Assembly: GCF_000253115.1 (NCBI RefSeq)
Contig: NC_014145.1
Span: 682,001 to 746,000, forward strand
Origin: Thiomonas arsenitoxydans
Lineage (GTDB): Bacteria; Pseudomonadota; Gammaproteobacteria; Burkholderiales; Burkholderiaceae_C
Direction: 5' to 3'
DNA length: 64,000 nucleotides
Part shown: one piece after another, positions 2,161-29,336 of the stretch
Layout of the letters: each line of letters starts with the position of its first letter
How positions within the stretch are numbered: position 1 is the first letter of the stretch
Notes under the pieces: generated by a model
Databases searched by the model: none
Told to the model about the DNA's origin: nothing
The model's input: the letters and a program-made list of their open reading frames with translations, nothing else
Translations under genes and position numbers: made by a program

Positions 2161-2554
2161 TTAGCGGCTGCACCACTGCTGCTCGCAGGGAGTGCCGTCC
2201 CTGTTGCCGTCCATCTTCACGCCAGGGCAGTGGGCGAGAAAGTACTTGGCTTCGGCGCAAGAGCGCATCTGCGAGCAATGGATGCGTCCATCGCAGGTGA
2301 AACCGGAAACGGTTGCAGCCGGGGAGCCCGACGGCGATGTGGCGTGTGGTTGCGTGGTTTGCTTTGCGGCTTGCGCTGCGCGCTTCATTTTTTCAGCGGC
2401 GTTCAGTTCTTCGATTGACGGCGGGTTTCGCACTTGACCAGATGGGCAGGGCGTTTGCTGAAAAGTGACTGTGCCATTCACCACGCATTTGTTCATCGGC
2501 GCCGCCTCAACGGCAGAGGTGAACAAAGCAAAAAACAAAGCGGCGCCCAGGAAT
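2161..2554 (-). pseudogene. Excalibur-domain secreted protein, 5' end cut by the island
   Basis: The C-terminal part ends in CPGVKMDGNRDGTPCEQQWC, an Excalibur calcium-binding motif (DxDxDGxxCE type). The N-terminal part has CVVNGTVTFQQTPCPSG, like DUF4124 proteins. The visible 5' end encodes only half a signal peptide (FLGAALFFALFTSAVEAAP) and has no ATG in frame; TTG at 2538 is the only nearby weak start. Joining 2554 to 29337 across the island restores ATG at 29353 and the reading MRKTSIFLGAALFFALF, a complete signal peptide. The gene was therefore interrupted at codon 6-7. The original ATG lay one base after the glmS stop. Confidence 0.85.
2550..2554. repeat. Target-site duplication, left copy (GGAAT)
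   Basis: GGAAT directly before TGTT at 2555. The same five bases follow the right end at 29332-29336. A 5-bp duplication is the size made by Tn7-family transposition. Confidence 0.85.
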
Positions 2555-2705
2555 TGTTTGCATCAAATAAAGTTCTATCTTAAAAAGTTGGCAAGTTGTT
2601 GATATAAATAGACTACATCTTTCGCTCCAAATCGAAAAGTCCTATCCTGACTTGATCAACTGGCGCCGTGCATGCGCCAAACGCACAAAATAAAGTCCTA
2701 TCCTG
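2555..2705. repeat. Left end of Tn7-like island with three TnsB-like sites
   Basis: Three direct repeats follow the terminal TGTT: CAAATAAAGTTCTATCT at 2564-2580, CAAATCGAAAAGTCCTATCC starting at 2628, and CAAAATAAAGTCCTATCCTG at 2686-2705. Spacing is about 60 bp over 150 bp, resembling the three separate TnsB sites of Tn7 left ends. Unit sequence is CAAAWnnAAAGTCCTATCCTG-like. Confidence 0.75.
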
Positions 2706-3051
2706 CGCCGGAAGAAACAGGCGCGCCTTCCAGCCCAAGCCTGTATAGCAGTTTCATCGCCCATAAAGCGGTTTGTCCTTCTGCATCAGCCTTGTTTCTC
2801 GGGGTCAGCATCTTGGGCATTCGCTCGCAAAAGCACACGTTGGACAATTCTTGCTCAATCTCATGATCCCAGTGACCGCTGGCATCGACCAAGCCATCCA
2901 GAGATCGTTGGACCGAAGCCTCGACGACGTCAAAAGTCGCGAGACGGCGGAAGCGCAAAGCAATCAGGGACAGTGCGACATCCCCGGTGCGCTCCACATC
3001 CAGCAGCACGATAGGCGGATACCCCGGCGGCATGATTGTTACTACCAGGCC
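2698..3051 (-). pseudogene. Unidentified ORF fragment, 5' end cut by IS21-family element
   Basis: The frame stays open from the IS boundary at 3052 down to a TAG inside the third left-end repeat. It encodes about 117 residues, including VVTIMPPGYPPIVLLDVERT and ALSLIALRFRRLATFDVV. I do not recognise a family. The first in-frame ATG is at 3033, but the reading continues upstream into the insertion sequence, so this could be the C-terminal part of an interrupted gene reading outward to the island's left end. It may also be a chance frame. Confidence 0.3.
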
Positions 3052-3259
3052 TGTCCGCGCCGATTGAATATTGACCCACCCTGCCGATCCAATATTGACC
3101 CAGGGCGGGTAGCTGCCTTTTGAATTGGCAACTGTGGATAAGTTTAGTCAATTGCTGGTTTTGGTCATCCTGACTTGGCTGCCCTGAATTGATTCATTGC
3201 GCAAGGGGGAAAGGAGCGCAGGACGAAGTCCGTAGCGTATTTCCCCCTTGTTCGGCCTC

Positions 3260-4075
3260 TCAGAATGGCTCTGGGAGCACTGTGGCCTTAACCGCCTTGC
3301 TGCCTTTACGCGACAGCTCACGCTCCTGGATACGCGACTTGGCAGCCATCGAGCTGTGTGCAAACCGATACGACTCGTTGCCTGTCTCCACGATATGGCA
3401 ATGATGCGTGAGCCGGTCCAGCAACGCGGTGGTCATCTTGGCATCGACAAACACGCTGGACCATTCCGAGAAACTCAGGTTGGTGGTGATCGCCACACTG
3501 GTGTGCTCGTACAACTTGGAGAGCAGGTGAAACAGCAAAGCGCCACCGGCCTGGCTAAACGGCAAGTACCCCAGTTCATCCAGAATCACCAGATCCACAC
3601 GCAGTAACGATGCAGCAATCCGACCGGCCTTGCCCTGGGCTTTCTCCTGCTCCAACTGGTTGACCAAGTCGACCGTCGAGTAAAACCGCACCCGCATACC
3701 CTTGGATGTGATGCCCGAGACCGCCACCGCGGTGGCCAGATGCGTCTTGCCGGTGCCAGGCCCGCCAATGAACACCACGTTCTGTGCGGTGTCGGTAAAG
3801 TCCATCGTCGCCAGTGTTTTGACCAGGTTTTCATCGACCGCGCTTGCAGCGAAGTCAAACCGGGCCAGATCACGATGCAGTGGAAACCGGGCGGCCTTGA
3901 GTTGATGGCTCACCGAGCGCATGGCCCGGTCGGTGTGTTCGGCTTGCAGCAAGTGTTCAATCAACCACTTCGATGAGGCCGTGCTGGTCTCACCTTGGGC
4001 CGTCAAGTCTGTCCAGGCACTGACCATGCCATACAGGCGCAGTTCTTTGAGTTCGGTGGTGACATCACAGCGCAT
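3260..4075 (-). CDS. istB: IstB-like ATPase of IS21 element
   Basis: A 271-residue AAA+ ATPase that partners the IstA transposase and selects targets. Walker [12 protein letters not shown] and Walker [19 protein letters not shown] are intact, followed by the sensor region [17 protein letters not shown] and the C-terminal [19 protein letters not shown], all usual for IstB. The ATG at 4075 overlaps the end of istA by 11 bp, the normal translational coupling of this family. A longer frame upstream is only the istA shadow. Confidence 0.95.
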
Positions 4076-5597
4076 GATTGACCTCCTTGGCTGGGCTGGT
4101 TTCAAGCGCTTCACGCAAGCTGTCATAGCGTCTGGTATTGGCCAGCGGTGGCTCTTTGAGCGCCAAAGCGGTTTCAACACAATCAGGCACGGGCTTGGCA
4201 TTGAGTCTGGCCAACACATTGAGAATATGCTCGACGCTGAGCGCGCCCGATTCCACAACCAAGTCAACCGCCACCAGCACGGCCTCCAATCCGGCTGTGG
4301 GTACGGCGGCCAATACCTGTGCCATAACTCGGTCACCACCGGCGCGTTTCATCAGTCCCTGGCGCAGTCGCTGCAGGGGTTCAGGCATGTCAGCAAACGG
4401 GGCGCCGTTTCTCAGCGCTCCTGGTTTACGTTGCACCAGCTCGATGTAGTGCTGCCAGTCGTAGCAGGTGTGGCCCCGGTCTGAGGCTCGGTCGTGGCTG
4501 GCCACCACTGCATCACCAGCGACGACGCAGACCCGGGTGGGATAGAGCCGGGTGCTGACTCTGTGGCCAGCCCACTCGCAGGGCACCGAATAGCGGTTAC
4601 GGTCCACACTGACCAAGCAGGTACTGGACACTTTGGCAGATTTCTCCACGTACCCGTCAAACGCTGTGGGCATCGGCATCATCTCCAGGCGTTCTTGTTC
4701 CAGCATTTCCAGTACGCTGAAGTGTGTGAACTCAGGGTGACGCAGTTCGCTCCAACAATCGCGGCAGCGCTGGCCCAGCCAGGCGTTGAGCTCGTCGAAA
4801 GAACTCCACTTACGCTTTTGTGCATCGAGCCAGATGCGCCTGCGGCTGTCTTGCACGTTTTTCTCAACCACGCCTTTCTCCCAGCCACTGGCGACGTTGC
4901 AGAAGTCCGCATCAAACAGGTAGTGCGCACACATGGCGGTAAAGCGTGCGTTGACAGTGCGCTGCTTACCCTTTTGGACTTTGTCCACGGCCGTTTTCAT
5001 GTTGTCGTAGATGCCCCGTCCGGGGATACCACCCAGCGCCGCAAACGAGCGGGTGTGGGCATCAAACAGCATTTCATGGCCCTGGCTGGGGTAGGCCACC
5101 AACCAGAAACCCCGACTGGCGCACAGCTTCATGTGCGAGAGTTGCACCTTGTTGTAGTAAATGCCACCCACCATCAGACCCTCGGTGCTCCAGTCAAACT
5201 GGAACGCCTCGCCCAGCGCGAACGTGAGCGGCACGAAGGCGTGCGGGGCTTTGCCTGGCGCGCCACGCCAATCTCGAATGAAATCGGTGACAGCGCTGTA
5301 GCCACCCGTGTAGCCCTGGGTTTTGATTTCCGCAAACAAGGCACGGGCGGTGCGTCGGTATTGCTTTGTGCGCAATGCATCGGCCTTGAGTGCCATCTCC
5401 AAGGCCGCGTGAAACGCTGTGAGTTTGCCAGGCACTGTCTTGCGCCGGTACTCGGGCTCGTCCCCCTCTTTGGCATCTCGCACCCATTTGCGGATCGTGT
5501 TTCGCGATAGCCCAGTGCCCTTGGCTATCTCACGCAGCGACTTCTTGTCGCGGGTGTACATCCGCCTGACTTTTCCAAACATTTCCATGGTGATCAC
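4065..5597 (-). CDS. istA: IstA transposase of IS21 element
   Basis: A 510-residue DDE transposase. The N-terminal helix-turn-helix covers [34 protein letters not shown]. The integrase core includes [20 protein letters not shown] (first Asp), [16 protein letters not shown] (second Asp) and [11 protein letters not shown] (Glu). A C-terminal beta-rich domain follows. The GTG at 5597 and ATG at 5588 are both possible starts; AGGAG lies 10-15 bp upstream of the GTG. No internal stops are present, so with istB the element looks potentially active. Confidence 0.95.
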
Positions 5598-5703
5598 CTT
5601 TGTTGCTCCTGCCTAAAAAGTAGGCAGGGCTAGTAAAACACCTGGGTCAGTTTTGGATCGGCACAACCTCGAAAAGTGGGTCAGTTTTCAGTCGGCATCA
5701 ACA

Positions 5704-6751: not shown

Positions 6752-8191
6752 TTATGCCGGACTATGTGGAAGTTCCAAGATCGCCTCCATTCCGCCATCG
6801 CGGCGATTCTGCAACGTCAACCGTCCCCCCGCCGCACGCGCGATGTCGCGTGCGATACCGAGGCCAAGGCCGGTGCCGCCGGTTTGACGGCTGCGCGACG
6901 CTTCAAGCCGATAGAACGGCTCAAACACCTTTTCCAGTTCTTCCTCCGGAATGCCGGGGCCCTGATCCTGAATGCGCAGTGTCAGGGAGGTAGCGCTATC
7001 GTCGACGACGATGAGGGCCCGTTCGCCATATAAAACGGCATTGTCGAGCAGATTCGCTAAGCAGCGCTTTATTCGTGCTGGATCCCCAACGAAGGGCTTG
7101 TTGGTACGCCCTTGAATCTGCACTTCACGCCCCATCTCTTCTGCGTCGGCCTGCAGACTTTCAAGCAAGGACATGATGTCGATGGGCTGAATATGTTGTG
7201 GCTGGTCGAGACCGCGCATGAAATCCAGCGTGTACTTCACCATCTGCTCCATCTCCAGCAGATCCTTCTCGAACCGCGCGCGCACATCGTCATCATCCAG
7301 CAGTTCTGCGCGCAAACGCATGCGGGTGATCGGCGTTTTCAGATCGTGCGACATGGCCGAAAAAATGCGCGTCCGATCCGTAATAAATCGAATCAGTTGA
7401 GCCTGCATGGTGTTGAACGCGTGTGCAGCGCGCCGTACCTCGGCAGGTCCAGCTTCCGGCAGTGGAGGACGATGGATGTCTTCACCAAGTGATTCAGCGG
7501 CCGAGGCCAGGACCGCCAGCGGCCGCGTCATCCACCGCACGGCAACAAAGGAGAGGAACAACACTGACGCCAAGAGTACGAGCAAGGTCAGCAGCAAATG
7601 CCAGGGGGGCGCCTGGGCGCCTTGGTGAAGCTGGGTTGTAAAGGCCACCCAGCTTCCATCGTGCAGTTGCACCTGGATCAGGAAGCCGAGTTTTTCCGCC
7701 ATGAAGGCTTGCATGGAAGACCGGGATGCCTGTGTCATACCCGACATATAGGCCGCCATCGAGGCCATGCCAGGTAGGGGTCGCCGGTGCATGTCGGGGA
7801 ATCCATTGGCCTCAGAAGGGTTTGCACTGGCCGAGACGATCAGCGGTCTTTCATCCCCGAGTGCGGAATGAAGCGCCTGTGAAAACATCATGGTTTGTGC
7901 GCTGCGCATTGCGGCAGCCGTTGTCTTGATGGGTGAGGGCTCCAAGTCCACGACCTGGGGCGGCACGCTCAAGATTTTTGCGATACGGAGCCGCTCCTGA
8001 TGCGGCATCGAATCCAGAAGTTTGACCACGTCAGCAATGCGTTGCGCAGACTGCATGCCGCTGTTGCGCAGCACCGCTCGGTCGCGCTCGGCGAAGTTAA
8101 TTGAGGCGCTCAGGAGTTGCGCCAAAATCAAGCCGCTCGAGAGGACGAGCATCATGCGGCCGAACAGCGACGCCGGCAGCAACCGTTTCAC
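6752..8191 (-). CDS. Sensor histidine kinase with Met-rich periplasmic domain
   Basis: A 479-residue EnvZ/CpxA-type inner-membrane kinase. Helix 1 is at residues 11-33 and helix 2 at 197-218, enclosing a periplasmic region of about 160 residues rich in Met and His (RSAQTMMFSQALHSALG; PGMASMAAYMSGM). HAMP follows, then the H-box FSAMSHDLKTPITRMRLR with His282, N-box LANLLDNAVLYGE, and G boxes DQGPGIPEEELEKVFEPF and GGTGLGLGIA. The ATG overlaps the response-regulator stop by 4 bp. The Met-rich sensor loop and the neighbouring multicopper oxidase suggest Cu(I) or Ag(I) sensing, which is inference. Confidence 0.92.
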   Translation of the reverse strand: MKRLLPASLFGRMMLVLSSGLILAQLLSASINFAERDRAVLRNSGMQSAQRIADVVKLLDSMPHQERLRIAKILSVPPQVVDLEPSPIKTTAAAMRSAQTMMFSQALHSALGDERPLIVSASANPSEANGFPDMHRRPLPGMASMAAYMSGMTQASRSSMQAFMAEKLGFLIQVQLHDGSWVAFTTQLHQGAQAPPWHLLLTLLVLLASVLFLSFVAVRWMTRPLAVLASAAESLGEDIHRPPLPEAGPAEVRRAAHAFNTMQAQLIRFITDRTRIFSAMSHDLKTPITRMRLRAELLDDDDVRARFEKDLLEMEQMVKYTLDFMRGLDQPQHIQPIDIMSLLESLQADAEEMGREVQIQGRTNKPFVGDPARIKRCLANLLDNAVLYGERALIVVDDSATSLTLRIQDQGPGIPEEELEKVFEPFYRLEASRSRQTGGTGLGLGIARDIARAAGGRLTLQNRRDGGMEAILELPHSPA

Positions 8192-8910
8192 GGCTTTCCT
8201 TCAACGGGCACTGACAACACATAGCCCATGCCGCGCACCGTCTTGATCAGTACCGGGTCGCGCGGATCGTCTCCAAGACGTTGACGCAAGCGACTGACCT
8301 GGACATCGATGCTGCGATCGAGCGGGTCGGCCTCCCGGCCTTGCGTGAGATCCACCAACTGGTCGCGGTTGAGAACCCGGTTGGGATGGCTCAGAAAAAT
8401 GCGCAACAAGCGGTATTCCGCGCCACTCAGCGTCACGACCACGCCTGCGGGAGAAATCAGATGGCGATGCAGGGTGTTGAGCGTCCAGCCTGCAAAATGG
8501 GCCTCGCGCAAATCTTCGGGCTGCAAATTGACGGGCAGGCTGCGAGCGCGTCGCAAGATGACCTTGATGCGGGCGAGCAACTCGCGCGCGCTGAAGGGCT
8601 TGGTCAGATAGTCGTCGGCGCCCATCTCCAGACCGACGACACGATCGGTCTCGTCGCTGCGGGCGGTGAGCATCAACACAGGGATGTCGGATTTGGCGCG
8701 GAGCTGGCGACAGAGCGTCAGACCGTCGTCGCCCGGAAGCATCAGATCGAGCACGATCAAGTCGATGCGCGCGGCGACGAGGGCGCGCTCCATGGCCTTG
8801 CCGTCGCCCACCGCGGTGACGCGCAGCCCGTTCTTTTGCAAATAGGCGCTCAGCAGATTACGGATCTCGCCATCGTCGTCAACGATCAGGATGTGGTCAG
8901 GTGTGTCCAT
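8188..8910 (-). CDS. OmpR-family response regulator
   Basis: 240 residues. The receiver domain has acidic pocket DDD at 11-13, phospho-acceptor Asp55 in LIVLDLMLPGDDG, Thr in VLMLTARS and Lys in TKPFSARELL. The C-terminal winged helix (about 145-235) has GAEYRLLRIFLSHPNRVLNRDQL and DVQVSRLRQRLGDDPRDPVLIKTVRGMGYVL. It is the promoter-proximal gene of an operon with the sensor kinase and is divergent from the Spy-like gene, 219 bp apart. The shared intergenic region is the likely target site. Confidence 0.95.
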   Translation of the reverse strand: MDTPDHILIVDDDGEIRNLLSAYLQKNGLRVTAVGDGKAMERALVAARIDLIVLDLMLPGDDGLTLCRQLRAKSDIPVLMLTARSDETDRVVGLEMGADDYLTKPFSARELLARIKVILRRARSLPVNLQPEDLREAHFAGWTLNTLHRHLISPAGVVVTLSGAEYRLLRIFLSHPNRVLNRDQLVDLTQGREADPLDRSIDVQVSRLRQRLGDDPRDPVLIKTVRGMGYVLSVPVEGKP

Positions 8911-9129: not shown

Positions 9130-9651
9130 ATGAAATGCAACCAGAGAACACTGGGTCTTGCCGCCGTCCTCTCACTCGCCGCAATCGGCACAGCCTACGC
9201 ACAATCCCCTGCCCAACCGCAGCAATATGGCTGCATGCAGGGGACCGGGCCGGGCTTGGGCATGATGGGCGGCCGCGGCATGGCTGCGGGCATGATGGGG
9301 CGCGGTGATCCTGCTGCCAGGATGGAAAATCGGCTTGGCGCGATGAAGGCGCAATTGCAGATCACGCCGCAGCAAGAGCCTGCTTGGGACGCCTTTACGG
9401 CACAAGCCAAGAAACAGGCCGATGCGATGCAGTCCATGCGGACCAGCCTGTTTGAGGCAAAGGGCAATGCTCCGGAACGCATGGAGCAACGCACCCAGTT
9501 GATGCAAGCGCGCGTGGCAGGCATGGAGACCATGACCGCTGCGATGAAAACGCTCTATGCCGAACTGAGCCCGGGGCAGCAAGCCATACTGAACCAGCAT
9601 TTTGGCGCGATGCGCGGAACCCGTCGCGGAGCGCCTGCGGGCGCGCAGTAA
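9130..9651 (+). CDS. Spy/CpxP-like (LTXXQ) periplasmic protein
   Basis: 173 residues. Signal peptide MKCNQRTLGLAAVLSLAAIG ends at AYAQ. A Gly/Met-rich linker (GLGMMGGRGMAAGMMGRG) follows. The helical body carries LQITPQQEPAWDAFTAQAKKQ and LYAELSPGQQAILNQHF, the two LTXXQ-type motifs of Spy/CpxP chaperones, though Thr is replaced by Ser or Ile around them. The start follows GGAG 7 bp upstream. It is first in a plus-strand group with the SHOCT protein and multicopper oxidase and probably protects periplasmic proteins or buffers copper. Confidence 0.9.
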   Translation: MKCNQRTLGLAAVLSLAAIGTAYAQSPAQPQQYGCMQGTGPGLGMMGGRGMAAGMMGRGDPAARMENRLGAMKAQLQITPQQEPAWDAFTAQAKKQADAMQSMRTSLFEAKGNAPERMEQRTQLMQARVAGMETMTAAMKTLYAELSPGQQAILNQHFGAMRGTRRGAPAGAQ

Positions 9652-9756: not shown

Positions 9757-9990
9757 ATGATGGGGTATTGGGGTTGGGGCGCAGGCCCTTGGTTCGGGAT
9801 GTGGATCATTCCAGTCCTGGTGTTGGGTCTGATTCTCTGGATGATTTTCAGAGGAGGACACGGCGTGTCGCATTGCGGGGACCGGCATTCCAGGCAAGAG
9901 TCGGCGCGTGAGGCGCTTGACCGGCGCTATGCGAACGGTGAAATCAGTCGCGAGGACTATCAGCGCATGAAACAGGAGATCAAGTCATGA
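9757..9990 (+). CDS. SHOCT-domain small membrane protein
   Basis: 77 residues. One membrane helix (FGMWIIPVLVLGLILWMIF) follows an aromatic Gly-rich start (MMGYWGWGAGPW). The SHOCT motif is at the C-terminus (ALDRRYANGEISREDYQRMK). AAGGAG lies 9 bp before the ATG. It overlaps the multicopper oxidase start by 4 bp (ATGA). SHOCT proteins of this kind are common next to copper-handling genes, but their role is not known. Confidence 0.88.
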   Translation: MMGYWGWGAGPWFGMWIIPVLVLGLILWMIFRGGHGVSHCGDRHSRQESAREALDRRYANGEISREDYQRMKQEIKS

Positions 9991-11946: not shown

Positions 11947-12219
11947 ATGAAATCCGCCGTCATCCCCCAGGTCCGTGTGGAGCCTGAGCTCAGAGCCGAA
12001 CTCGAGTCCGTGCTCAGAAAAGGCGAAACGCTAACCGACTTCGTTGAAGCAACCGTGCGGAGTGCTATCGCGTTCAGGCGTGTTCAAACCGCTTTCCACG
12101 AGCGCGCTCAGGCTGCGTCGGTGGAGTACCACCGCTCTGGCATCGCGGCGCCGGTCGAGGTAGTGCTTGAGCGGCTGCAGGACAAGCTCGATGTGAAGCG
12201 GACGAAACTCGGTCGATGA
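11947..12219 (+). CDS. Antitoxin of a ParDE/RelBE-type pair
   Basis: 90 residues. A beta strand VIPQVRVEPELRAELESVL followed by helix LTDFVEATVRSAIAFRR fits a ribbon-helix-helix DNA-binding fold. The C-terminal part (residues 50-90, FHERAQAASVEYHRSGIAAP) would wrap the toxin. The ATG at 11947 is preferred over longer in-frame starts because the homologous fold begins there. It overlaps the toxin start by 4 bp. The pair probably represses its own promoter in 11709-11946. Confidence 0.8.
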   Translation: MKSAVIPQVRVEPELRAELESVLRKGETLTDFVEATVRSAIAFRRVQTAFHERAQAASVEYHRSGIAAPVEVVLERLQDKLDVKRTKLGR

Positions 12220-12530: not shown

Positions 12531-12637
12531 TTCGTCAGTGGCCTGCCCATTCCGCGCTTGACGCTCGGAAACTATCCCTGGCAAACGGCCGGTCATGGCC
12601 GACTCCATCCGACGGCGAAGTCGGCCCGAAGAAAGTA

Positions 12638-14721: not shown

Positions 14722-14890
14722 TTTGTAATCTCTTGATTCGGCATCGTGTGGTACCCTGTTGAAGCGCCGCATTGTGCAATACATGGGAATTTTTTCAGTA
14801 ATCAAATCCTGGGATTTTTCGTTTACTTAAAATGTTCATGCAACCCCATGTAAAAACCACCTGGAAGTAAGCAGAGTATGAAGGGCGAGT

Positions 14891-16655: not shown

Positions 16656-16728
16656 CCCCTGAATGACGCCATCGCTGTGCACCGATGGCGCTGGCCGATC
16701 CCCTGGCGCAAGAACTGAGGACACATTG

Positions 16729-18345: not shown

Positions 18346-18392
18346 CCATGGCGCCGCGGGGGCCTGACGCGCAGCGGCTGGTCTGGGGACGC

Positions 18393-20189: not shown

Positions 20190-20210
20190 GGCGTATGCGT
20201 GCGCGGTGAC

Positions 20211-21740
20211 TCAATCCTCGAGCGTGACCACGACGGTCTCACTGAGCGCCTGCGTCCCGCGGCGCAGGAACAAGCGGAACTCCTTTTGCGCCAGCCCCGT
20301 CAGGCGCAGGTCCAGCACGACGCGCCAGGAATTTTTGCGGCCGTACAGGCGATGGGCGCGCAGGCCCATGACCGCGGAGGCCGGCAGGTTGGTCAGCGCC
20401 TGCACGCCGCTGGCATCATCCAGCCCGGCCAGCACATCGCCGCGGAAGTCGAACACGTACTTGCGCGTGGACGGATCGGGCGGGGTGTCGGCCTGGCCGG
20501 CCGGCCCGATCAACAGATTGCAGCAGTGCGCGTTGGCGTCGGTGCTGGGATCGGCGGATGTCCACGTCAACCGGTACGCCACGTCGCGGCGCTGTCCGGC
20601 GCGCGCCGGTTCGTCGGCAACCCAGAATGCGCCGATGTTGTCCACGGTCTCCGAGATCGACGCCATCTCGTAGAGCATCACGCTGCCTGTGCCCCAGTCG
20701 CCCTGGGGCTGCACCCACAGCGAAGGCCGCAGTTCGTAGAACAACGTGTCGTCCTCGTAGTTGGTGAAATCGCGATCGCGCTGCATGAGGCCGAAGCCGC
20801 TCGGGTGATCGGCGCGGAAGGCGCTCATGCGCGCCTGAGCCGGGTTGTGGAGAGGGCGCCAGATGCGCTCGCCGGCTCCGGTGCGGATGGCCAGCCCCCC
20901 CGAGTCGTGCACCTGCGGACGCCAGTCGCCGATGGGGCGGGCATGCGGCATGCCGTCGGCGCGCGTCTGGTCGTAGAGGAACATGCTGGTCTGCGGGGCG
21001 ATGCCCAGGCGCTGCACATCGCGTCGCAGGAATAGCGCACAACGCACGTCCTGCACCACGTCCACGCCTTCGTGACGCCAGGTGTCGATGGCGTAGGCGC
21101 CGGCCAGCGAAGGGCCGTCGAGTAGGGCGTGGGTGATCACGTGGTCGTCCGACGGCTGCTCGATCCAGAAGTCGGTGAAGGCCGGGAACTCCTCCGGCCC
21201 CGGCAAGCCGGTGTCCACCGAGATGCCCCGTGCCGAAAGGCCGTAGCGGTTGGACGTCCCCGAGCAGCGAAAGTACGAGGCCCCGAGAAAAGCCATCCAG
21301 TCGGTGCGCGCGTCGGGCGCCAGCACGCGCCAGCCGGCCGGATCGGCGGTCTGTCCGCCGCCGAACAGCCCATGCGTGTCGATCAGTCTCCTGGCCACGC
21401 CGTGGTCGACGACATGGATGGACACGGCCAGCGGCGCCACGCCGCGGCGCGGCGGGAACAGGCGCACCGTACCCGTCACCGCGTCGGCGGCGCCGTAGGC
21501 CAGGCGCACGAAGGCGTCGGAGTCCGATACCGCGTGCGCCGACGGCCGGGGCGCCACGTAGGACCGGCCCGCGAGCCGGCGCGCGCGCTCGACCAGCAGA
21601 TCCCAGGAAAACGGCCGCGGCGGGCCCAAGCGGCCGCCGCCTGCGGCGAAGGCCATGCCGGGTTGCAGCAGCCCGGCGGCCAGCGAAGCAAGCGCGCCGC
21701 TGGCCTGGCGGCGGGTGAACTTGGGAGCGGAGGGGGTCAT
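20211..21740 (-). CDS. Periplasmic glucan protein of OpgG/OpgD family
   Basis: 509 residues, the length typical of OpgG. The leader contains FTRRQASGALASLAAGLL, a possible Tat signal. Conserved blocks include RPFSWDLLVERARRLA, ASYFRCSGTSNRYGLSARGI, EFPAFTDFWIEQP, GAGERIWRPLHNP, PSGFGLMQRDRDFTNYEDD and WGTGSVMLYEMASISETVDN. It parallels OpgD at 16729 along its whole length, so the locus has two diverged members. Its ATG overlaps the HlyD-like stop by 4 bp. It probably shapes or branches the glucan made by the OpgH encoded next. Confidence 0.88.
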   Translation of the reverse strand: MTPSAPKFTRRQASGALASLAAGLLQPGMAFAAGGGRLGPPRPFSWDLLVERARRLAGRSYVAPRPSAHAVSDSDAFVRLAYGAADAVTGTVRLFPPRRGVAPLAVSIHVVDHGVARRLIDTHGLFGGGQTADPAGWRVLAPDARTDWMAFLGASYFRCSGTSNRYGLSARGISVDTGLPGPEEFPAFTDFWIEQPSDDHVITHALLDGPSLAGAYAIDTWRHEGVDVVQDVRCALFLRRDVQRLGIAPQTSMFLYDQTRADGMPHARPIGDWRPQVHDSGGLAIRTGAGERIWRPLHNPAQARMSAFRADHPSGFGLMQRDRDFTNYEDDTLFYELRPSLWVQPQGDWGTGSVMLYEMASISETVDNIGAFWVADEPARAGQRRDVAYRLTWTSADPSTDANAHCCNLLIGPAGQADTPPDPSTRKYVFDFRGDVLAGLDDASGVQALTNLPASAVMGLRAHRLYGRKNSWRVVLDLRLTGLAQKEFRLFLRRGTQALSETVVVTLED

Positions 21741-22972
21741 GGTGCCGTGGGGGTCGATGGCGCGATGGCTGGGTCACGGATCGGAAGACCGGGTTTCGGG
21801 CCTGACGCGCCCGGCGCCTCGCGCCAGCCGATGATCGCCAACTGTCCCGGACGCACCGGCCCGCCGAGGATCTGCGTGCGATTGCCGTCGCTGGGACCGG
21901 CGATGATGGACACGCTGCGCGCCGTGCCGTCGACGTCAAGCAGGCAGAGGCTGCTGCGTTCGAGTTCGGGTTGCGCCGAGCAATGGGGGGCGAAGGCCAG
22001 CGCCGTGTTCGGCGCCAGCAGCACATGGTGGCGAACCGGCAGGGTCATTTTGAGCGTGGCTGCGGCGGCCGGCGGAATGCGCGGGTCGGCTGCCAGCGCG
22101 AACACGGCCTGGCGCACACCCGCCGGGTCGGTGGTGGTACGCAGCAAAGTGGCGGCGCGCTCTGCGCCATCGATGCCGGAGATGACCACGCGTGCCGACT
22201 GCCCCGCGGGCAGCGACTCGATACCAGGGGGCAGCGGCACGATCACGCGCGCGGGGGCGTCCAGCGGCGCCAGTTCGAGCAGCGGCTGTCCGGCCCGGAC
22301 CTGACTGCCCGGCGCCACCAGCGGCCGGACCACCACCCCGGCGATGGGAGCGCGCGGCAGCGTGGCCTGCAGATTGGCCATGTCGTCGTCGAGGCGGCGC
22401 TGGGCCGCAGCGAGCAGCACACGATCCCGCCGCACCGCGAGTGCCGCGCTGCGCACCGCAGCGCGCGCGGTGTCCATCTCGTCCAGCGAGGGCACGCGGT
22501 GGGCCGACTCGCGCCACACCTTGTCGTACCGCGCGATCCGGGCGTCGGCCAGCCTGGACTCCACGAAGGCACGCGCCAGTTGGTCGCGCGCGGCGGCCAG
22601 CGCCAGGCGGTCGGCATCGATAGCCTGTGCAAAAGCGCTGGTATCCACCACGGCCAGCGCCTGGCCGGGTGCCACCGTGTCGCCCGGAGCCACCGGTACT
22701 GCGGTGATCAAGGCATCTCGCGGCGCACGCACCGTGATTTCGCCGACCAGGTAGGCCCGGCCTTTGATGGACAGTTGCGGACGCAGGTCGCCGCGAATAA
22801 TCGGCGCCATGTAGTACGGGGTCGTGTTGCCCTCGAGAAAACGCAGCAGCAAGCTGCCCGCCACCCCCAGCGCCAGCAGCAGCAGCGTGATGCTGATCCA
22901 GCGCCGCGCGCGACTGCGTGGGCGTGCGTCCAGCAGCGCATCGACCTGCGAGGCGTCGTTCGGCTTAGCCAC
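21737..22972 (-). CDS. HlyD/RND-type periplasmic adaptor (membrane fusion protein)
   Basis: 411 residues. One N-terminal membrane helix (WISITLLLLALGVAGSLLL). The first lipoyl half is ITAVPVAPGDTVAPGQALAV, then an alpha hairpin (QAIDADRLALAAARDQLARA through QRRLDDDMANLQATL), then the second half PIAGVVVRPLVAPGSQVRAG. Beta-barrel and membrane-proximal regions follow. The start is a GTG at 22972 overlapping the upstream gene by 8 bp; no ATG fits. Such adaptors link an inner-membrane machine to an outer-membrane channel. No RND, ABC or MFS pump is encoded here; the only multi-spanning partner is OpgH. Confidence 0.88.
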   Translation of the reverse strand: MAKPNDASQVDALLDARPRSRARRWISITLLLLALGVAGSLLLRFLEGNTTPYYMAPIIRGDLRPQLSIKGRAYLVGEITVRAPRDALITAVPVAPGDTVAPGQALAVVDTSAFAQAIDADRLALAAARDQLARAFVESRLADARIARYDKVWRESAHRVPSLDEMDTARAAVRSAALAVRRDRVLLAAAQRRLDDDMANLQATLPRAPIAGVVVRPLVAPGSQVRAGQPLLELAPLDAPARVIVPLPPGIESLPAGQSARVVISGIDGAERAATLLRTTTDPAGVRQAVFALAADPRIPPAAAATLKMTLPVRHHVLLAPNTALAFAPHCSAQPELERSSLCLLDVDGTARSVSIIAGPSDGNRTQILGGPVRPGQLAIIGWREAPGASGPKPGLPIRDPAIAPSTPTAP

Positions 22973-23993
22973 GGCAGTCTCCGGCTGCCAGCGGCATGTC
23001 TCCGACCGAGCTGCGCGTCGGCTCGCGCAGCCTGGCCTGGTTCCTGCGCAGACCGACGTCGGTCCACAGATCGATCGCCGCGCGCGCCAGCCGCGCCCGG
23101 GTGTCGATGCGCGCCTCGCGCACCGCCAGTTGCGCGGTTTGCGCCACGTACAGAGTGGCGAAATCACCGGTCCCCAGGCGGTAGGCAGCGCGCGCATCGT
23201 CCGCGGTGCGCTCAGCGTCGCGCTCGAGCTCGGGCAGTGCGGCCTCGCGCGCCCGCACCTCGGCCAGCACGGCGCGCAGGCCAGCCGCTTGCGCGTCGTC
23301 GCATGCCGCCGCAGCCGCGCCGTCGACGTCGAGCCAAGGCACTTGAGCGCCGTCGGCGACCCACAATCCCAGTTGCCATGGCGCGACCGCCGCACGCCGT
23401 GCCAGCGTCGCTTCGGCCGCGGCCAGGTGAGCGCGCGTGTCGGCAAGCGCGCTCGCATTGGTGCCGATCAGCGACGCCGCCAGTCCGCTGTCAACCCCCG
23501 AGACCAGCCCGGCCTCGTAGCGCCAGCGCGCGAAGTCGGCATTGTCGTGGAACCGATCCTGGAACGCCTGGCGCAAGGCCAGGTTCCATTGCAGGCGGCG
23601 CACCTCGACGTAAGCGCGCGCGATGCGCGCGGCCTTGCGCTGGCGCGCGTCGGCCAGCCGCACGGCCTGCACTTCGGGGGAATCGGGCATCTGCTGCAGC
23701 ATGCGGCCGACCCAGCGGGCGAGGCGGAAGCGCCACTGCTGCGAGCGCGCCTGCAGGTCGCCCAGGGCGCGGGCTTCGCGGACCAGGAGCGGGTTCGCCG
23801 CCAGCCCGTGGTCGATCAGCCGAGCCAGCAAGGGGTCGTCGACCTCTGTCCACCACGGCACACTGGGAGCCGAGTCGGCGCTCACTGCGGCTTCGGATAT
23901 CTGTGCACCGGCGGGGCTTTGCAGCGAGGCGCAACCGCCCAACGTGCACAGCACGAGTAACCCGATCCAAAGGGCTTGGAATGTTCTGAACAA
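22965..23993 (-). CDS. Outer-membrane-factor-like lipoprotein (TolC/NodT relative), short
   Basis: About 342 residues from TTG 23993 (start uncertain; no good ribosome site). A lipoprotein signal FQALWIGLLVLCTLGGCASL is clear. The N-terminal NodT block follows (VPWWTEVDDPLLARLIDHGL, then AANPLLVREARALGDLQARS), and the C-terminal helix repeat has AYRLGTGDFATLYVAQTAQL. The family usually has 450 or more residues; the stretches that form the beta-barrel strands in NodT-type proteins (around YELDLWG and the second repeat) are hard to find. It may be a shortened channel or a barrel-less periplasmic tube. First gene of the operon. Confidence 0.75.
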   Translation of the reverse strand: MFRTFQALWIGLLVLCTLGGCASLQSPAGAQISEAAVSADSAPSVPWWTEVDDPLLARLIDHGLAANPLLVREARALGDLQARSQQWRFRLARWVGRMLQQMPDSPEVQAVRLADARQRKAARIARAYVEVRRLQWNLALRQAFQDRFHDNADFARWRYEAGLVSGVDSGLAASLIGTNASALADTRAHLAAAEATLARRAAVAPWQLGLWVADGAQVPWLDVDGAAAAACDDAQAAGLRAVLAEVRAREAALPELERDAERTADDARAAYRLGTGDFATLYVAQTAQLAVREARIDTRARLARAAIDLWTDVGLRRNQARLREPTRSSVGDMPLAAGDCRG

Positions 23994-24409
23994 GGGACGT
24001 CGGAATCTGAAACAGGAGGCAAAAATAGATGCCGTGATGGGAGAATGGTACGAAGTGTCGCGGTCTGCACCCGCGCCGCCGACGCTTTCATGTGCCAACC
24101 GGAACACGCTCACGGTACGGCATGAGTCTACCCACCGCCGCCTACCCGCCCGGCGATTGCGCCTCGGAGCGGTCGGCCATCGGGCTGGCTCGGTCGCCTT
24201 CGCGCCGGCACCATGGACGGCATGACCAGTTCCGCAGGCTCCGGGGCCACGGCCAGTCGACCTCAATCGTTCGAGCGGGCCCGCGCGCACGCCATGCGCT
24301 GTCCGCGCCAGCCCCGTCGTCGGCAAGGTCGATGTCGTCCTTCATAGCTATGAGGGCCATCAGGGCGGCATCGGCAACCGCGGGTCCAGAGGTCGGTCCG
24401 GCCATGAAG
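23994..24409. other. Gene-free stretch upstream of the efflux-glucan operon
   Basis: About 415 bp between the OMF-like start and the beta-propeller stop. No supported ORF. It should hold the promoter of the minus-strand four-gene operon. No operator was recognised. Confidence 0.5.
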
Positions 24410-25489
24410 TCAATTCTTGAGTTTGAAGACTTCAACACAGCCGCGGGGACACGTCTTGTCGCCCGCGGCCACTGGTACGAAAGCACGGCCATTGCCCGGA
24501 TCTGCGGCCACCGAATGGGCGTGTCGACCGCTGGGGATGTTCTCGACCCAATGTGGTCGGCGCGCGTCGATCACGCCCAATACCGGGCCACCTGGATTAG
24601 CCACCGCCGCGAGCATAAAGTCACCACTGGCGGAGTCGAACCAGACTTCGTCGGAGCCGCCGACCTGATGGAAAGTCCGCAGGATCTTGCCCGAAACGGG
24701 ATCGAGCAGTAATGAAACTGCCTTGAAGCCGGCGGCGACCGCGTCGTCGCTGCAGCCCACCAGCAGCTTGCCGCCGGGGCCGAGCGCCAGCCCCCCCGGC
24801 ATGCAGCGCGCCAAGTCGTGCACGCCTGTCAGCCGGGCGCTGCGCGGGTCGATTACCGCGATGCCTCCTCGCGCCGCGACGCCGTCGAGTTCCGGAACGG
24901 CGACGTACACCATGCCGGTTCGCGGGTCCCACAAGGGCTGCTCCAGCCCGCCTGTGGCTTGCGGCAGCCTCAGCCTGGCGCGCACGCGGTAGGGGGCCCT
25001 TGAAGAGATGAAACTGAGAAAGGGCGGGTCGTCTGCGTTGTTCGCTGCGATCACCAGGTGGTCGCGGGGGTCGTAGGCGAGTTCATCCACCTGTTTGCTT
25101 CCGCCAGTGGCGACGGTCGCGACGATGCGCCGCGAGCGCATGTCGGCGACGCGCACCAAGCTGCCGCCATCACCCGCCCAGAGCCGTGTGCCATTGATCA
25201 TGACCACGCCGTTCGGCCCGCCCTGGCCTGCGCCGACCGGCCCGGCGAACCCGGGTATGCGCCCGAGAAACTGCAGCGTTCGGGTGTCGATCAGATCCAC
25301 GCCGTGGTTGGAGCGATCGGCGAGGGCGTACACCCCGTCCTGGGCATAGCCGATGTCGAAACTGCGCAAGGCGTTCCCGGGAATGTTGATGGTTCGCGGG
25401 GGTTGGAACATGGACTCGGCGTGCGCTGAACCTGTCGCGCAAATCAGCAATGCCAGACAGGAGAGAAGACGGGAAACCGGCGGCGTCAT
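24410..25489 (-). CDS. YncE-like secreted beta-propeller protein
   Basis: 359 residues. Signal peptide MTPPVSRLLSCLALLICATG ends at AHAE. The body holds repeated blades of about 40-45 residues with GVDLIDTRTLQFLGRIPGF, VRVADMRSRRIVATVATGG, GIAVIDPRSARLTGVHDL and VLGVIDARRPHWVENIPSG, as in YncE/YVTN-type seven-bladed propellers. Four Cys are present in the mature part, two of them near the end (CPRGCVEVF). The ligand is unknown. It is transcribed toward the efflux-glucan operon, 416 bp upstream of it, and may belong to the same functional island segment. Confidence 0.82.
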   Translation of the reverse strand: MTPPVSRLLSCLALLICATGSAHAESMFQPPRTINIPGNALRSFDIGYAQDGVYALADRSNHGVDLIDTRTLQFLGRIPGFAGPVGAGQGGPNGVVMINGTRLWAGDGGSLVRVADMRSRRIVATVATGGSKQVDELAYDPRDHLVIAANNADDPPFLSFISSRAPYRVRARLRLPQATGGLEQPLWDPRTGMVYVAVPELDGVAARGGIAVIDPRSARLTGVHDLARCMPGGLALGPGGKLLVGCSDDAVAAGFKAVSLLLDPVSGKILRTFHQVGGSDEVWFDSASGDFMLAAVANPGGPVLGVIDARRPHWVENIPSGRHAHSVAADPGNGRAFVPVAAGDKTCPRGCVEVFKLKN

Positions 25490-25583: not shown

Positions 25584-26346
25584 TTAGTTCGGCCTTAGCC
25601 TCGTAATCTGTGACCTCGCTACATGAGGCAATCTCAGGAAGTGCTCGCTACGGCGCCGTCGCAGCAGCATATCTGCCAGAGCCAGTGCGTCGCCCGGCGT
25701 GAACGCTGCCTCGAAAGCCGGGTGGAGCCGCGCCAAAGCCTCGGCGGTGGCGTCGAACACCTCAGGGAATCCCAGCGCATCGAGGCCAATCAACTCGCCA
25801 TCCCTTTGCATTGCGGCGCAGCAGCCGTAGGTTCTGCGCTAAGAAAAGCAGGTCGGCTCCGGCGTCCCGGAGTGAGGCGAGAGCACCGGAGAGGCCTGCG
25901 TCCTCCAGGATCTTGCCGAAGTCGGATCGCCACCGCGGCCGGATGTAGGGCGGATTGCAAACCGCAACGTCCACGGTGCCCAGGCGAAGTCCGATCTTGT
26001 CCGAGAGCGCTTCATCAAGCGCATCATGCACAAAGTGGCTGTGCTTCAAGCTCGGCCCATTGTGTTCCGCATCCAGTCGTTTCGGGGCTTGGCGATCAAC
26101 ATCGACCGTGACGAGCCGAGCGTCGTGCCAACGGCTGGCGGCAGCCGAACATAGTGCTCCGGAGCCTGAACCCAGCTCCAGCACCACTTTTGGCTTGCTT
26201 ACTTCGATGCGCTCGATAAGCGAGTGGCTGACTTCATCCGAGGTGTAGTACCGCCCCCATGGGTCGGAGTGCTGACCCGACCGGGTCAGGTGTTGCCTGA
26301 GGCCACTTGGTGACGCCGTCATCTCTCCCGCCTTACGCAACGCCAT
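25584..26346 (-). pseudogene. N6-adenine DNA methyltransferase, broken
   Basis: Reading from 26346, the N-terminal frame gives PKVVLELGSGSGALCSAAAS (SAM motif I) and VDVAVCNPPYIRPRWRSDFG with the NPPY catalytic motif of N6-adenine methylases. After NLRLLRRN near 25815 it runs into unrelated codons and stops at 25762. An overlapping frame (25811 to 25584) continues GELIGLDALGFPEVFDATAE and ends SQITRLRPN, so a frameshift or a fusion to another gene's end has occurred. The whole is shorter than the family and lacks a target-recognition domain. An orphan remnant of a modification system is the best reading. Confidence 0.65.
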
Positions 26347-26443
26347 TGTTATAGAGCGTCGGTCGCCCCAACGTAAGCGTTTGCCGAACCCATCTTTTCA
26401 ATGAGTCTGAGCTGAGCGAAGCTTGGGTTTTTTCGGGGGCTCC

Positions 26444-26812
26444 ATGCGATCAGACAAACTCAGTGAAGAGCGGATTGATGAGATTCTGGCGATCCTCGAT
26501 GAACTCAAAGCCAGCGGGATGAAGGCCGAAGCGTTTGCGCAAAGCAAGGGGCTGGGCTACGGGCAACTGCGCGGCTGGCTGTCGAGCGCGCCGCGCTGGC
26601 GCGCCCAACGCGCGGGTCTGGCCCTGCCGCCTCGGCGCAGCGCCTTCGTGCGCGCCCACTGCAACCCGTCCCCCGCTGCGGCTGCGGAGGGAAGCCCCCA
26701 TCCCGGACACGCCCGCATCACCTGCGAGGGGGCCCAGCGCCGCGCCCAGATTGACTGGCCCGTGGCCCACGCAGCCGAGTGCGCGCAGTGGCTGCAGGCC
26801 TGGCTGGGATAA
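26444..26812 (+). CDS. tnpA: IS66 accessory protein TnpA
   Basis: 122 residues from ATG 26444 (MRSDKLSEERIDEILAILDE). A helix-turn-helix-like segment KAEAFAQSKGLGYGQLRGWL matches IS66 Orf1 proteins. The C-terminal half is Pro/Ala-rich. It ends 4 bp before tnpB. Needed for IS66 transposition, probably by DNA binding. Confidence 0.85.
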   Translation: MRSDKLSEERIDEILAILDELKASGMKAEAFAQSKGLGYGQLRGWLSSAPRWRAQRAGLALPPRRSAFVRAHCNPSPAAAAEGSPHPGHARITCEGAQRRAQIDWPVAHAAECAQWLQAWLG

Positions 26813-26815
26813 GCC

Positions 26816-27157
26816 ATGCTGCGCATTGAGGCCATCTGGCTGGCCGTGGGCGCCAGCGATCTGCGCGGCGGCATGGATAGCCTGCTGGGCCAGGTTGTGG
26901 CCCGGTTTGGCTCGGCCCAGCGCCACCATGCCTACGTGTTTGCCAACCGCCGCGCCACCCGGCTGAAGGTGCTCGTCTTTGATGGCTCGGGGATCTGGCT
27001 GTGCACGCGCCGACTGCAAGAAGGCCGGTTTGCCTGGCCGCAGGAGGACCGTGAGGCGCTGCACCTGAGTGCCGAGCAATGGAGTTGGCTGGCCGCCGGG
27101 CTGCCGTGGCAGCGCATGACCGCGCACGCCACCGCCAGCGCCATTGCCGTGGTGTAG
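26816..27157 (+). CDS. tnpB: IS66 Orf2 protein TnpB
   Basis: 113 residues. The family signature is complete: VGASDLRGGMDSLLGQV, then ANRRATRLKVLVFDGSGIWL and CTRRLQEGRFAWP. Length is standard for IS66 Orf2. It lies between tnpA and tnpC as in all three-gene IS66 elements. Confidence 0.95.
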   Translation: MLRIEAIWLAVGASDLRGGMDSLLGQVVARFGSAQRHHAYVFANRRATRLKVLVFDGSGIWLCTRRLQEGRFAWPQEDREALHLSAEQWSWLAAGLPWQRMTAHATASAIAVV

Positions 27158-27226
27158 TCCCCCGGACGTTTGTCGATCGGGGCAACTCCCGATTCTCGCG
27201 CGCGCGTGCGCGCGAGAGAATTCGGC

Positions 27227-28787
27227 ATGGTCAGCGCCATCGACGACGACAAACTCCAGTCCCTGGGCGACGATCCGGCGGCGCAGTACGCGCGCACGGT
27301 CATTGCGCAGTTCGGTGCACAGATCGCGCACCAGCGTGCCGAGCTCAAATTTCAATCGACCAAGATTGCGGCCCTGAGCTTCGAGCTGGCGCGCCTCAAG
27401 CAATGGCGCTTCGGCCAGTCCAGCGAGAGCCTGGACACGCAAGGCCAGCTCTTCGACGCCAAGACGCAGGCGCTGCTGCAAGCCGAGGAACAGGCCGAGG
27501 ACCGCGCCGCCGATGCGGAGCGCACCGCCCCAGGCAAACGTCGCCCCAAACGCCAGCCCCTGCCCAGCCAGTTGCCGCGCATCGAGCATCGCTACGAGAT
27601 CGACTCCGGCCTGTGCCCGCAGGGCCACACCCTGCGCCGTATCGGGGAGGAGATCAGCGAGCAACTCGACTGCGAGCCCACGCGTTTCTTCGTGCACCGG
27701 CACATCCGCGGCAAGTATGCCTGCGCCTGCTGCCAGACGGTGTTGGCTGCACCCCTGCCAGCGCAACTCATTGACAAAGGCATTCCCGCCCCCGGCCTGC
27801 TGGCGCAGGTGGTGCTGGCCAAGCACGACGATCACCTGCCGCTGTACCGCCAGGAGGAGATTTACCGCCGCAGCGGCGTGCACCTCCCGCGCTCGAGCCT
27901 GGCGCAGTGGGTGGGCCTGTGCGGGGTGCGCCTGGAACCGCTGGCCCAGGCCCTCAAAGACCATCTGCTGGAGCAACCCGTGCTGCATGCCGATGAGACC
28001 CCCGGTAGCCGAGCTGGCGCCGGGCACGGGCAAGACACACCGCGCTTATGTCTGGGTCTACCGCAGCGCGGCTACGCCGGCGGTGGTGTTTGACTATTGC
28101 GCCAGTCGTGCCGGTGCGCATGCGCGCGACTTCCTGCAGGATTGGTCAGGCACCTTGCTCACCGATGACTTCAGCGGCTACAAGGCGCTGTATGCCCAGG
28201 GGAGCATTGTGGAGGCGGGGTGCTGGGCGCATGTACGCAGAAAGTTCTTCGAGGCGCACAAGCTGGCGGGCAGCGCCATCGCGCAGGAGGCGCTTGAGCG
28301 CATCAAAGCCTTGTATGCCATTGAGCAGACCCTTCGGGAGCATCCGCCCGATGCGCGCACCGCGCTGCGCCAGCGCCAAAGCCAACCCCTGCTCGAGGCC
28401 TTGCACGCCTGGCTGATCGAGCAACGCCCGCTTCTGGCCAAGGCCGACGCCACGGCGCGGGCCATCGACTATGCGCTGGGCCGCTGGCGGGCGTTGTGTG
28501 TGTTTGCCACCGATGGGCGCGTGCCGATCGATAACAACGCGGTGGAAAACGCCATTCGGCCTCTCGCACTCGGGCGCCGAAACTGGCTCTTCGTGGGCTC
28601 GCCCCAGGCCGGCCGCCGAGCCGCCGTGCTCATGACGCTGATCGAATCGGCCAAGCTCTGCGAGGTCGACCCCTGGGCCTATCTCAAGGACGTGCTGACG
28701 AAGCTGCCCACCTGGCCCAACAGCCGTCTGGGCGAATTGCTGCCCCACAACTGGGCGAAAACCAATCCCCCTGCACTCAGCACCTGA
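27227..28787 (+). pseudogene. tnpC: IS66 transposase TnpC, +1 frameshift in a C tract
   Basis: The first frame (ATG 27227, MVSAIDDDKLQSLGDDP) includes the coiled coil, a zinc-finger-like region (CPQGHTLRRIG, CACCQTVLA) and QPVLHADETP, the first catalytic Asp. At a run of five C (27999-28003) the reading must lose one base to continue as VAELAPGTGKTHRAYVWVYR, GTLLTDDFSGYKALY (second Asp) and PIDNNAVENAIRPLALGRRN (Glu). Everything else is intact. Either the copy is dead, the extra C is a sequencing slip, or slippage at the C run restores full-length protein. Confidence 0.9.
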
Positions 28788-28828
28788 CCTTCACTTCGGG
28801 TGTCAAGAGGGGTTCCCTGCACGCTTAC

Positions 28829-29233
28829 GCCCCAACGTCCCGATTACGCCTCCCAAAATTGTATCTAAGGCTGGGCCTTCGGAAGTCCGCTCTCGCTGCA
28901 AAGCGGCCACTGGGCGGGACAGGCCTTGTGACTGGAACGGGTCGTGACCGGCCTCTAGGCCGAATCTGGCGAGAGTCCGTTCATGCCGATGTCCGGGCCT
29001 TTGGCGGTTTCGGTCAAAAGTACCCTCGGAGCTGGAAAGCTCCTCGCGACTGGAGTGTCGGGCCTAATCCTTGGGTTGTCACTCAAGGGTCAGCAAAATT
29101 GCATGCTCGATAACGCGTGGTTATAGCCTGCGCGACATCCAGTCCCCGTATCGCCCGCGATGTCCAGTGCCGTGCCAGCAGCGCAATGCGTGGGGCCAAA
29201 TCGGCCCTCAGGCCGCGACGCTGCGTGGTCGCT
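28829..29233. other. Gene-free stretch between IS66 and the island's right end
   Basis: About 400 bp without a recognisable gene. It is rich in short inverted segments such as GGCCTCTAGGCC. In an autonomous Tn7-like element tnsA would be expected here; none is visible. Confidence 0.5.
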
Positions 29234-29331
29234 GTTTGCGACTTCATGTGCATGCCTCGCGAGCCCGCATTCTGCCTTGATCGTTGTTTGCGACTTTAAT
29301 GTACCGTTTGCGACTTTAATTGCACGGAACA
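29234..29331. repeat. Right end of Tn7-like island with three TnsB-like sites
   Basis: GTTTGCGACTTTAAT occurs at 29286-29300 and 29306-29320, exactly 20 bp apart, and GTTTGCGACTTCATG at 29234-29248. The terminal ACA is at 29329-29331. The terminus is 23 bp from the glmS stop. Tight spacing of TnsB sites is characteristic of Tn7 right ends. Confidence 0.85.
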
Positions 29332-29336
29332 GGAAT
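29332..29336. repeat. Target-site duplication, right copy (GGAAT)
   Basis: Same five bases as 2550-2554, directly after the terminal ACA. It lies within what was codons 6-7 of the gene following glmS. Confidence 0.85.

Follow-up and report, generated by a model that had tools for sequence, protein, structure and literature searches.

A 64,000-nucleotide stretch of contig C2 of the Thiomonas arsenitoxydans genome (G000), positions 682001-746000, called the window below and the source of all island coordinates, carries beside glmS an island of 26,777 bp (2555-29331), and the present study concerns the relation of this island to Tn7-like transposons. The 3' end of glmS (29355-31223, minus strand; Pfam SIS and glutamine amidotransferase domains) is the landmark of the insertion site attTn7. 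GGAAT flanks the island on both sides, at 2550-2554 and, 18 bp from the glmS stop codon, at 29332-29336 (both unstranded), confirming the borders proposed in a first-pass annotation of the sequence. On the left, the island separates the 5' end of an Excalibur/DUF4124 gene (2161-2538, minus strand; Pfam Excalibur 5.6e-9, DUF4124 1.2e-6). When the flanks were joined in silico minus one GGAAT, the interrupted 5' end was regained, reading MRKTSIFLGAALFFALFTSAVEAAPMNK, apparently an ordinary signal peptide. The comparison with sister glmS loci, proposed in the same annotation, revealed the uninterrupted junction ACTTCGATATTCCTGGGCGCCGCTTT in the sister genome G416 (locus L151), the sequence diverging past the junction. 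GGAAT and this empty-site junction thus provide the 5-bp target duplication made by glmS-directed Tn7-like transposons.

The left terminus reads TGTTTGCATCAAATAAAGT from 2555, and at the right terminus TGTTCCGTGCAATTAAAGT is read from 29331 on the minus strand; as previously noted, both begin with TGTT and carry CAAWTAAAGT at equal offset, giving the common core TGTT-N5-CAAWTAAAGT. The right end (29234-29331, minus strand) combines its terminus with repeats AAAGTCGCAAAC at +14, +34 and +86, corresponding to 29306-29317, 29286-29297 and, with one mismatch, 29234-29245. At no more than one mismatch, AAAGTCGCAAAC has four matches in the window, three in this end and the fourth at 61759, with 0.27 expected from shuffles. 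The left end (2555-2705, plus strand) combines its terminus with repeats of the motif AAAGTYCTATCYT at +14, +81 and +137; the copies AAAGTCCTATCCTG at 2636 and 2692 are the only two window matches at two mismatches or fewer (0.08 expected), and the third copy, which has diverged, begins at 2569. TGT termini and predicted TnsB-type repeat arrays, denser at one end, are thus present, and the denser end is the one proximal to glmS, 23 bp beyond its stop, a distance that the coordinates bear out. The description of three repeats per end with Tn7-like asymmetry held for the arrays and the asymmetry, whereas the repeat units of the two ends proved unlike, AAAGTYCTATCYT on the left versus AAAGTCGCAAAC on the right, their common features being limited to the spacing plan and the CAAWTAAAGT core. 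The island thus lacks one repeat motif at both ends that would let a single TnsB pair them.

The double motif AAAGTCGNAA-N9-TAAAGTCGNAA of the right end, whose first relative was found on a plasmid of Polaromonas JS666, matched at least 119 stretches, mostly of Betaproteobacteria by title. Among the matches listed, glmS ended no more than 400 bp outside the end in 76 of 112 loci, these being the 119 minus L011, L051, L065, L077, L084, L100 and L114, which were dropped as taxonomically odd (76/119 if the seven are counted as misses), and the distance from stop to motif was 39-43 in 61 of the 76 glmS-linked ends; the same measure in the island is 41, the commonest distance in the family among these matches. 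The ends alone, used as a probe, thus recovered a large glmS-linked family. The closest relative of the right end among the matches listed was the metagenome-assembled genome (MAG) REEB268 (L148), with 347 bp at 99.7% identity; the island segment concerned (28979-29331, minus strand) is more than 99% identical to the REEB268 right end, and no DNA match to REEB268 was found further inside, beyond this common segment. A family end profile was then compared with the window; it had been built without the window and required a TATT or TGTT terminus, so that odd ends were excluded. Over profile positions 1-19, the island termini were the top two of approximately 128,000 window positions (31.3, and 16.1 for the left; the third scored 7.6), while over all 28 positions the left end scored -1.3, third after the right end and one unrelated place, and its tail alone scored -17.4. 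The left repeat tail is CTATC, versus CGNAAAC in the right-end family. Because bases 1-19 fit the end profile and the tail does not, we read the left border as a putative Tn7-type left end of other specificity and not as a random border.

GlmS was found in 10 of the 13 genomes of the genus, the host counted, and various states were found after glmS. L150 (G417) has a right end at a nearly identical position, the end and the glmS tail being 94.7% identical over 282 bp; L152 (G415) has a different right end of the same family, L154 (G421) an array with a third repeat tail, and L156 and L159 an MFS gene directly after glmS. Together with the empty site of L151, these states indicate that the site has been used repeatedly in the genus. 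At the right end of the T. intermedia MAG (L047/L150), ATATTTGT precedes the end, where the empty site reads ATATTCC.

The absence of recognisable tns genes from the island, stated in the first-pass annotation, was borne out: the island gave no match to five family hidden Markov models (HMMs), and no Tns family was found among the island open reading frames (ORFs) scanned with Pfam, so that the island has no TnsA, TnsB, TnsC or TnsD/TniQ of its own by these searches. In a search of 39 genomes with a TnsB profile (A1), 14 gave matches, nine of them strong, and none was found in G000, G414 or G415; three of the nine had supplied rows of the profile. Searches of G000 with the TnsB of L148, TniQ or TnsA_N, which had no positive control, gave no match. 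Machinery elsewhere in the host genome was therefore not found for the TnsB types searched, and other tns types could escape. Of the 76 glmS-linked loci, the 36 whose contig extends inward from the end by approximately 12 kb or more were considered in the TnsB search. Seven of these islands had a strong TnsB match inside the end and on their own contig; one of the seven matches (G008), at a distance of 34 kb from the end, may belong to another element. In G426, a weak match (1.8e-7) was found on the island's contig and a strong one on another contig, and the TnsB matches of G454 were on contigs other than that of the island.

The HMMs were made from five elements (four rows each, three for the second TniQ), all among the 37 sequences that were then searched. 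Complete tns sets (TnsABC, TnsD and TniQ) were found in seven of these, three being seeds; Acidovorax 210-6 had TnsABC and a partial TniQ, two sequences had TnsD only, one had a TnsA remnant, and REEB268 had TnsD and TnsA matches outside its right end. The remaining 25, the window included, gave no tns match, with inside lengths in the 37 of 10-60 kb, so that tns genes or a left end farther in would escape; the G439 stretch ends just past its TnsD gene. By Pfam, Rhodoferax U11 (L137) has TnsD (PF15978, 4e-49), TniQ (2e-13) and TnsA (PF08722, 5e-7), with an AAA ATPase in the TnsC position and, in the TnsB position, a large protein without a transposase match. The TnsB-position proteins of L137, L147, L140 and L130 are open frames of 765-809 amino acids that appear very divergent; that of L137, the one scanned, has no rve or Mu-transposase Pfam match, although by eye the alignment of these proteins shows a DDE-like pattern. 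The suggested search for TnsABCD elements with the same repeats thus succeeded for the right-end repeats, with seven complete sets, and not for the left repeats, which differ. Taken with the features of the locus, these results place the island among known systems: like Tn7 and the glmS-directed Tn7-like transposons, it has the attTn7 position, TGT termini, a 5-bp duplication and asymmetric arrays with the denser end by glmS; unlike them, it has no tns genes found, and the repeat tails of its ends differ. In function and descent, the island is a derivative of a glmS-directed Tn7-like transposon; as it has neither its own transposase nor matching ends, we call it, tentatively, a hybrid and probably immobile Tn7-like island.

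Left ends were next sought in the 37 sequences, at a reach of at most approximately 60 kb, which favours small bounded elements. Fifteen candidates were obtained in 14 elements, 23 sequences giving none, and seven candidates were followed by exactly the 5 bp that precede their own right end (2/540 in pairs across elements). The seven bounded relatives are those of Rhodoferax U2 (14.8 kb), a groundwater Polaromonas (6.4 kb, not at glmS), Rugamonas (13.2 kb), Uliginosibacterium (24.5 kb), bin34 (G454, 35.9 kb), a Nitrosomonadales MAG (G452, 31.1 kb) and Hydrogenophaga (G430, 5.9 kb). Their left-end spacing was +14/+82 in four of seven, Hydrogenophaga having +136 in addition. A full tns set was seen in the Nitrosomonadales element alone; that of Uliginosibacterium has a TnsA remnant, and no tns gene was found in the other five. 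Islands without a complete set thus recur (6/7). The tns genes of the Nitrosomonadales element lie near its left end, with tnsA at the end away from glmS. In Tn7, by contrast, tnsA is at the glmS-proximal end. One motif class occurs at both ends in six of the seven relatives, the exception being the 5.9-kb Hydrogenophaga island, where the duplication is exact and the ends differ, with GTAAAC on the right and GAAAAC on the left. As cargo, the Rhodoferax U2 element carries esterase, zinc alcohol dehydrogenase, histidine-kinase-like, ferric-reductase-like and YcaO proteins.

These relatives bear on a possible but appreciably less probable account than the one preferred below, namely that the island is a single non-autonomous element that moved in trans, with TnsABCD from a plasmid or a tandem neighbour recognising the common core of both ends. 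The terminus, offset and spacing plan shared by the two ends point in this direction, as do the six bounded elements with exact duplications and no complete tns set, the TnsB matches off the island contig in G454 and the strong one likewise in G426, and the occurrence in REEB268 of the same right-end segment followed by unrelated DNA. However, the repeat tails of the island ends differ, whereas the bounded relatives, Hydrogenophaga excepted, use a single motif class for their two ends. Furthermore, plasmid searches with three bounded tns-less elements for a second site gave best coverages of 15% and 26% and, for the third, no match, so that no tns-less element was found at two sites.

Evidence of stacking at attTn7 was found in several genomes. 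In bin34 (G454), one element's left end directly adjoins the right end of its neighbour. In the sister Thiomonas genome G421, a GTTGAC-type right-end array follows glmS directly, and a decayed end of the CGCAAGC/GCAAAC type lies approximately 150 bp further in. In REEB268, a near-identical copy of the island right end lies beside another element, glmS being beyond reach there. The two G421 arrays (L169:1594-1840) have different repeat tails and lie within about 250-270 bp downstream of glmS, and the element beside the REEB268 copy (L148:307-9299) holds a second, different tns set (TnsD and TnsA matches with TnsB- and TnsC-like neighbours) and a GmrSD restriction gene. This set sits directly outside the copy of the Thiomonas right end, and two AGTCTGTCC repeats (minus strand) near 9700 in L148 may be the left end of that second element.

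Two insertion sequence (IS) elements lie near the island ends. An IS21-family element (3052-5703, minus strand; Pfam IstB at 3260-4339 and IstA at 4065-5597) is located 0.5 kb inside the left end, with inverted repeats at both ends and no direct repeat at the resulting limits. Near the right end, an IS66-family element (26373-28828, plus strand; Pfam IS66 proteins) has a perfect 8-bp duplication, GCCCCAAC, and is a simple later insertion; an IS66-linked loss of tns genes was rejected because of this duplication. Together with a tyrosine integrase fragment (12535-12978, minus strand; Phage_integrase 6.4e-9, C-terminal part), the IS elements might suggest an island unrelated to Tn7, made by an integrase or by IS elements and lying beside glmS by chance. 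This is extremely improbable, and both the end family and the empty-site junction already contradict it: the duplication is exact, the reading frame is restored, the distance of the family end from glmS is the commonest one, tns genes occur in relatives that share the right-end repeats, and the IS66 element is a simple insertion.

Considering these results, Tn7-type transposition (TnsABC + TnsD) put the island into attTn7, and we tentatively propose, with a confidence just short of even, that its present form is a fusion of two Tn7-like elements. An element 1 with CTATC-type ends would have inserted first at attTn7, and an element 2 with CGCAAAC-type ends would then have entered between element 1 and glmS at the identical base pair, so that GGAAT was duplicated again. 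A deletion from the interior of element 2 to the left part of element 1 would have removed the inner ends and the tns genes, and a single event, either an IS21-linked deletion or recombination of one IS21 copy with another, would give all of it. Since TnsD fixes the position, two successive insertions would duplicate the same 5 bp, and the joining deletion would leave a perfect-looking boundary. The IS21 element is perhaps the site of the deletion, and a deletion ending there would account at once for the dissimilar ends, the matching duplications and the lack of tns genes. In support of the fusion, the IS21 element occupies the left side of the island, where the Nitrosomonadales element carries its tns genes, and it has no duplication at its inverted-repeat limits, in contrast to the perfect one at IS66. 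The cases of stacking and the unlike-ended Hydrogenophaga (G430) island also favour the fusion. The resulting island would be immobile unless a TnsAB accepting both ends were supplied. The suggestion of the first-pass annotation that a Tn7-like machine, now absent or acting in trans, moved the island is thus upheld by the attTn7 insertion, the 5-bp duplication, the empty site and the tns-bearing relatives, while a single such machine acting on this end pair is doubtful, since the two ends have no common repeats.

Several results weigh against the fusion. Motif searches for both ends revealed no trace of inner ends, left or right, within the island, and no element with two CTATC-type ends was found in a limited search. 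The left motif in the close spacing of a right end had no match in 399 genomes of the order, and in left-end spacing it had none in viral contigs, with only the fetched genomes covered beyond these; plasmid blastn gave three matches at E ~6, judged to be chance. A single left 17-mer had 79 loci in viral contigs, and at just one of them (L242) was there another copy no more than 200 bp away; this copy lies in a phage gene and was rejected. Alternatively, the left end could belong to the right-end family and have drifted. The argument from IS21 is also weak: moving the limits by two bases gives a 4-bp CAGG match, which arises by chance in approximately 31% of random flanks, and a related IS21 in L098, with the same TGT...ACA limits, likewise has no clear direct repeat, which slightly lowered our confidence in the fusion.

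An alternative that uses the same IS21 element is a single autonomous Tn7-like element whose tns genes were lost in place by an IS-linked deletion and whose left repeats drifted. The lack of tns genes found and the position of IS21 near the left end fit such a loss, the TnsA remnant in the G450 island suggests tns loss in the right-end family, and IS-mediated deletion within a glmS-located Tn7 element has been published (PMC8190619). However, one and the same altered tail is found in all three left repeats, an outcome hardly expected from independent drift, and the right end, more than 99% identical to that of REEB268, has hardly decayed. Loss in place is thus quite unlikely.

The Tn6171/Tn6552 family of Acinetobacter, to which that deletion variant belongs, consists of Tn7-family elements beside glmS with a 5-bp duplication; unlike the island, Tn6171 is reported to have tns genes and a siderophore cargo (PMC8190619). 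Benler et al. (2021) described 6,549 bounded Tn7-like transposons with IS elements and ParE toxins among their cargo, both of which the island shares (PMC8649781). That survey appears to start from core transposition genes, in which case a tns-less island would escape it; surveys seeded with tns genes would miss such islands. In titles and the openings of abstracts, from a literature mostly without subscription papers, no tns-less or in-trans attTn7 element was described; of the papers with published islands of Thiomonas sp. 3As, that of 2010 (19 islands) does not mention Tn7 in its main text, and that of 2015 (30 islands) mentions neither Tn7 nor glmS there. More broadly, and as a rather doubtful proposal, the betaproteobacterial attTn7 might be a trading post to which bounded, tns-less satellites with common asymmetric ends are carried in trans by a resident or passing TnsABCD, and in which they stack and recombine into unlike-ended islands, the Thiomonas island being the most divergent seen here. 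If stacking and deletion make hybrids with identical duplications, a bounded appearance is no proof of one-step transposition, and gene islands that can no longer move may be assembled at attTn7. The natural end pairs are available for testing what TnsB reads.

The remaining genes of the island begin beside the left end with a small hypothetical ORF (2698-3033, minus strand) that has no Pfam match and a 91% identical homologue in Thiomonas sp. X19; it was rejected as a tns relic because its named homologues are hypothetical proteins and it lacks a Pfam match. Beyond IS21 lie, by Pfam, a two-component system of sensor kinase and response regulator (6752-8910, minus strand), an LTXXQ (Spy/CpxP-like) periplasmic protein (9130-9651, plus strand; PF07813 1.3e-16), a multicopper oxidase with Cu-oxidase domains (9987-11708, plus strand) and, past the integrase fragment, a DUF347 membrane protein (13819-14805, minus strand) and a PAP2-family ORF with an incomplete domain (15077-15745, minus strand; PAP2 3.7e-4, a partial profile under the curated cut-off). 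A periplasmic-glucan and export block (16663-24326, both strands), assigned by Pfam except for its last ORF, comprises MdoG (16663-18345, plus), an MdoH-like glycosyltransferase (18393-20189, minus), a second MdoG (20211-21740, minus), HlyD (21737-23458, minus) and an efflux-like ORF (22965-24326, minus) named by eye without a Pfam match. A beta-propeller-like periplasmic protein (24410-25489, minus strand; by eye, no Pfam match) and a methyltransferase-like ORF (25762-26346, minus strand; Pfam MTS 3.4e-8) precede IS66.

The glucan block has a second, 7.5-kb copy at 98% identity on the same chromosome (G000:C2:1823147-1830630), which adjoins a gene resembling glnD by eye and 125 bp of DNA of the beta-propeller-like gene, and further copies, 96% identical, lie in G422 and G419. 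For the two-component module, copies occur in G420 (88% identical DNA) and G425 (82%). Neither end motif was found in six fetched stretches around cargo copies elsewhere in Thiomonas. The cargo is therefore a composite of modules that also live elsewhere, and the situation that the annotation had named as contrary to its proposal, the same genes at another place without these ends, was encountered for the cargo modules and not for the island. The view that such cargo is new to Tn7 elements did not stand, copper and silver genes and ParE being already published as Tn7-like cargo. Copper/silver (pco/sil) genes are reported on Tn7-like elements of enterobacteria (PMC3401170, PMC6211086), which resemble the island in carrying metal-response cargo; the elements of PMC3401170, unlike the island, are described with tnsABCD at a site other than glmS. 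DNA related to the integrase fragment occurs in L033 and L061, 2-3 kb from family ends. The toxin-antitoxin pair (ParDE; 11953-12530, plus strand) consists of a putative antitoxin without a Pfam match and a ParE toxin (ParE_toxin 1.3e-10), and its DNA is 82% identical at L042:2704-3314, 0.65-1.27 kb inside the right end and in the opposite orientation. With a further relative at L104:7194-7351 (70%), ParDE DNA lies approximately 0.3-1.3 kb from the right end in these loci, as if it were recurrent cargo.

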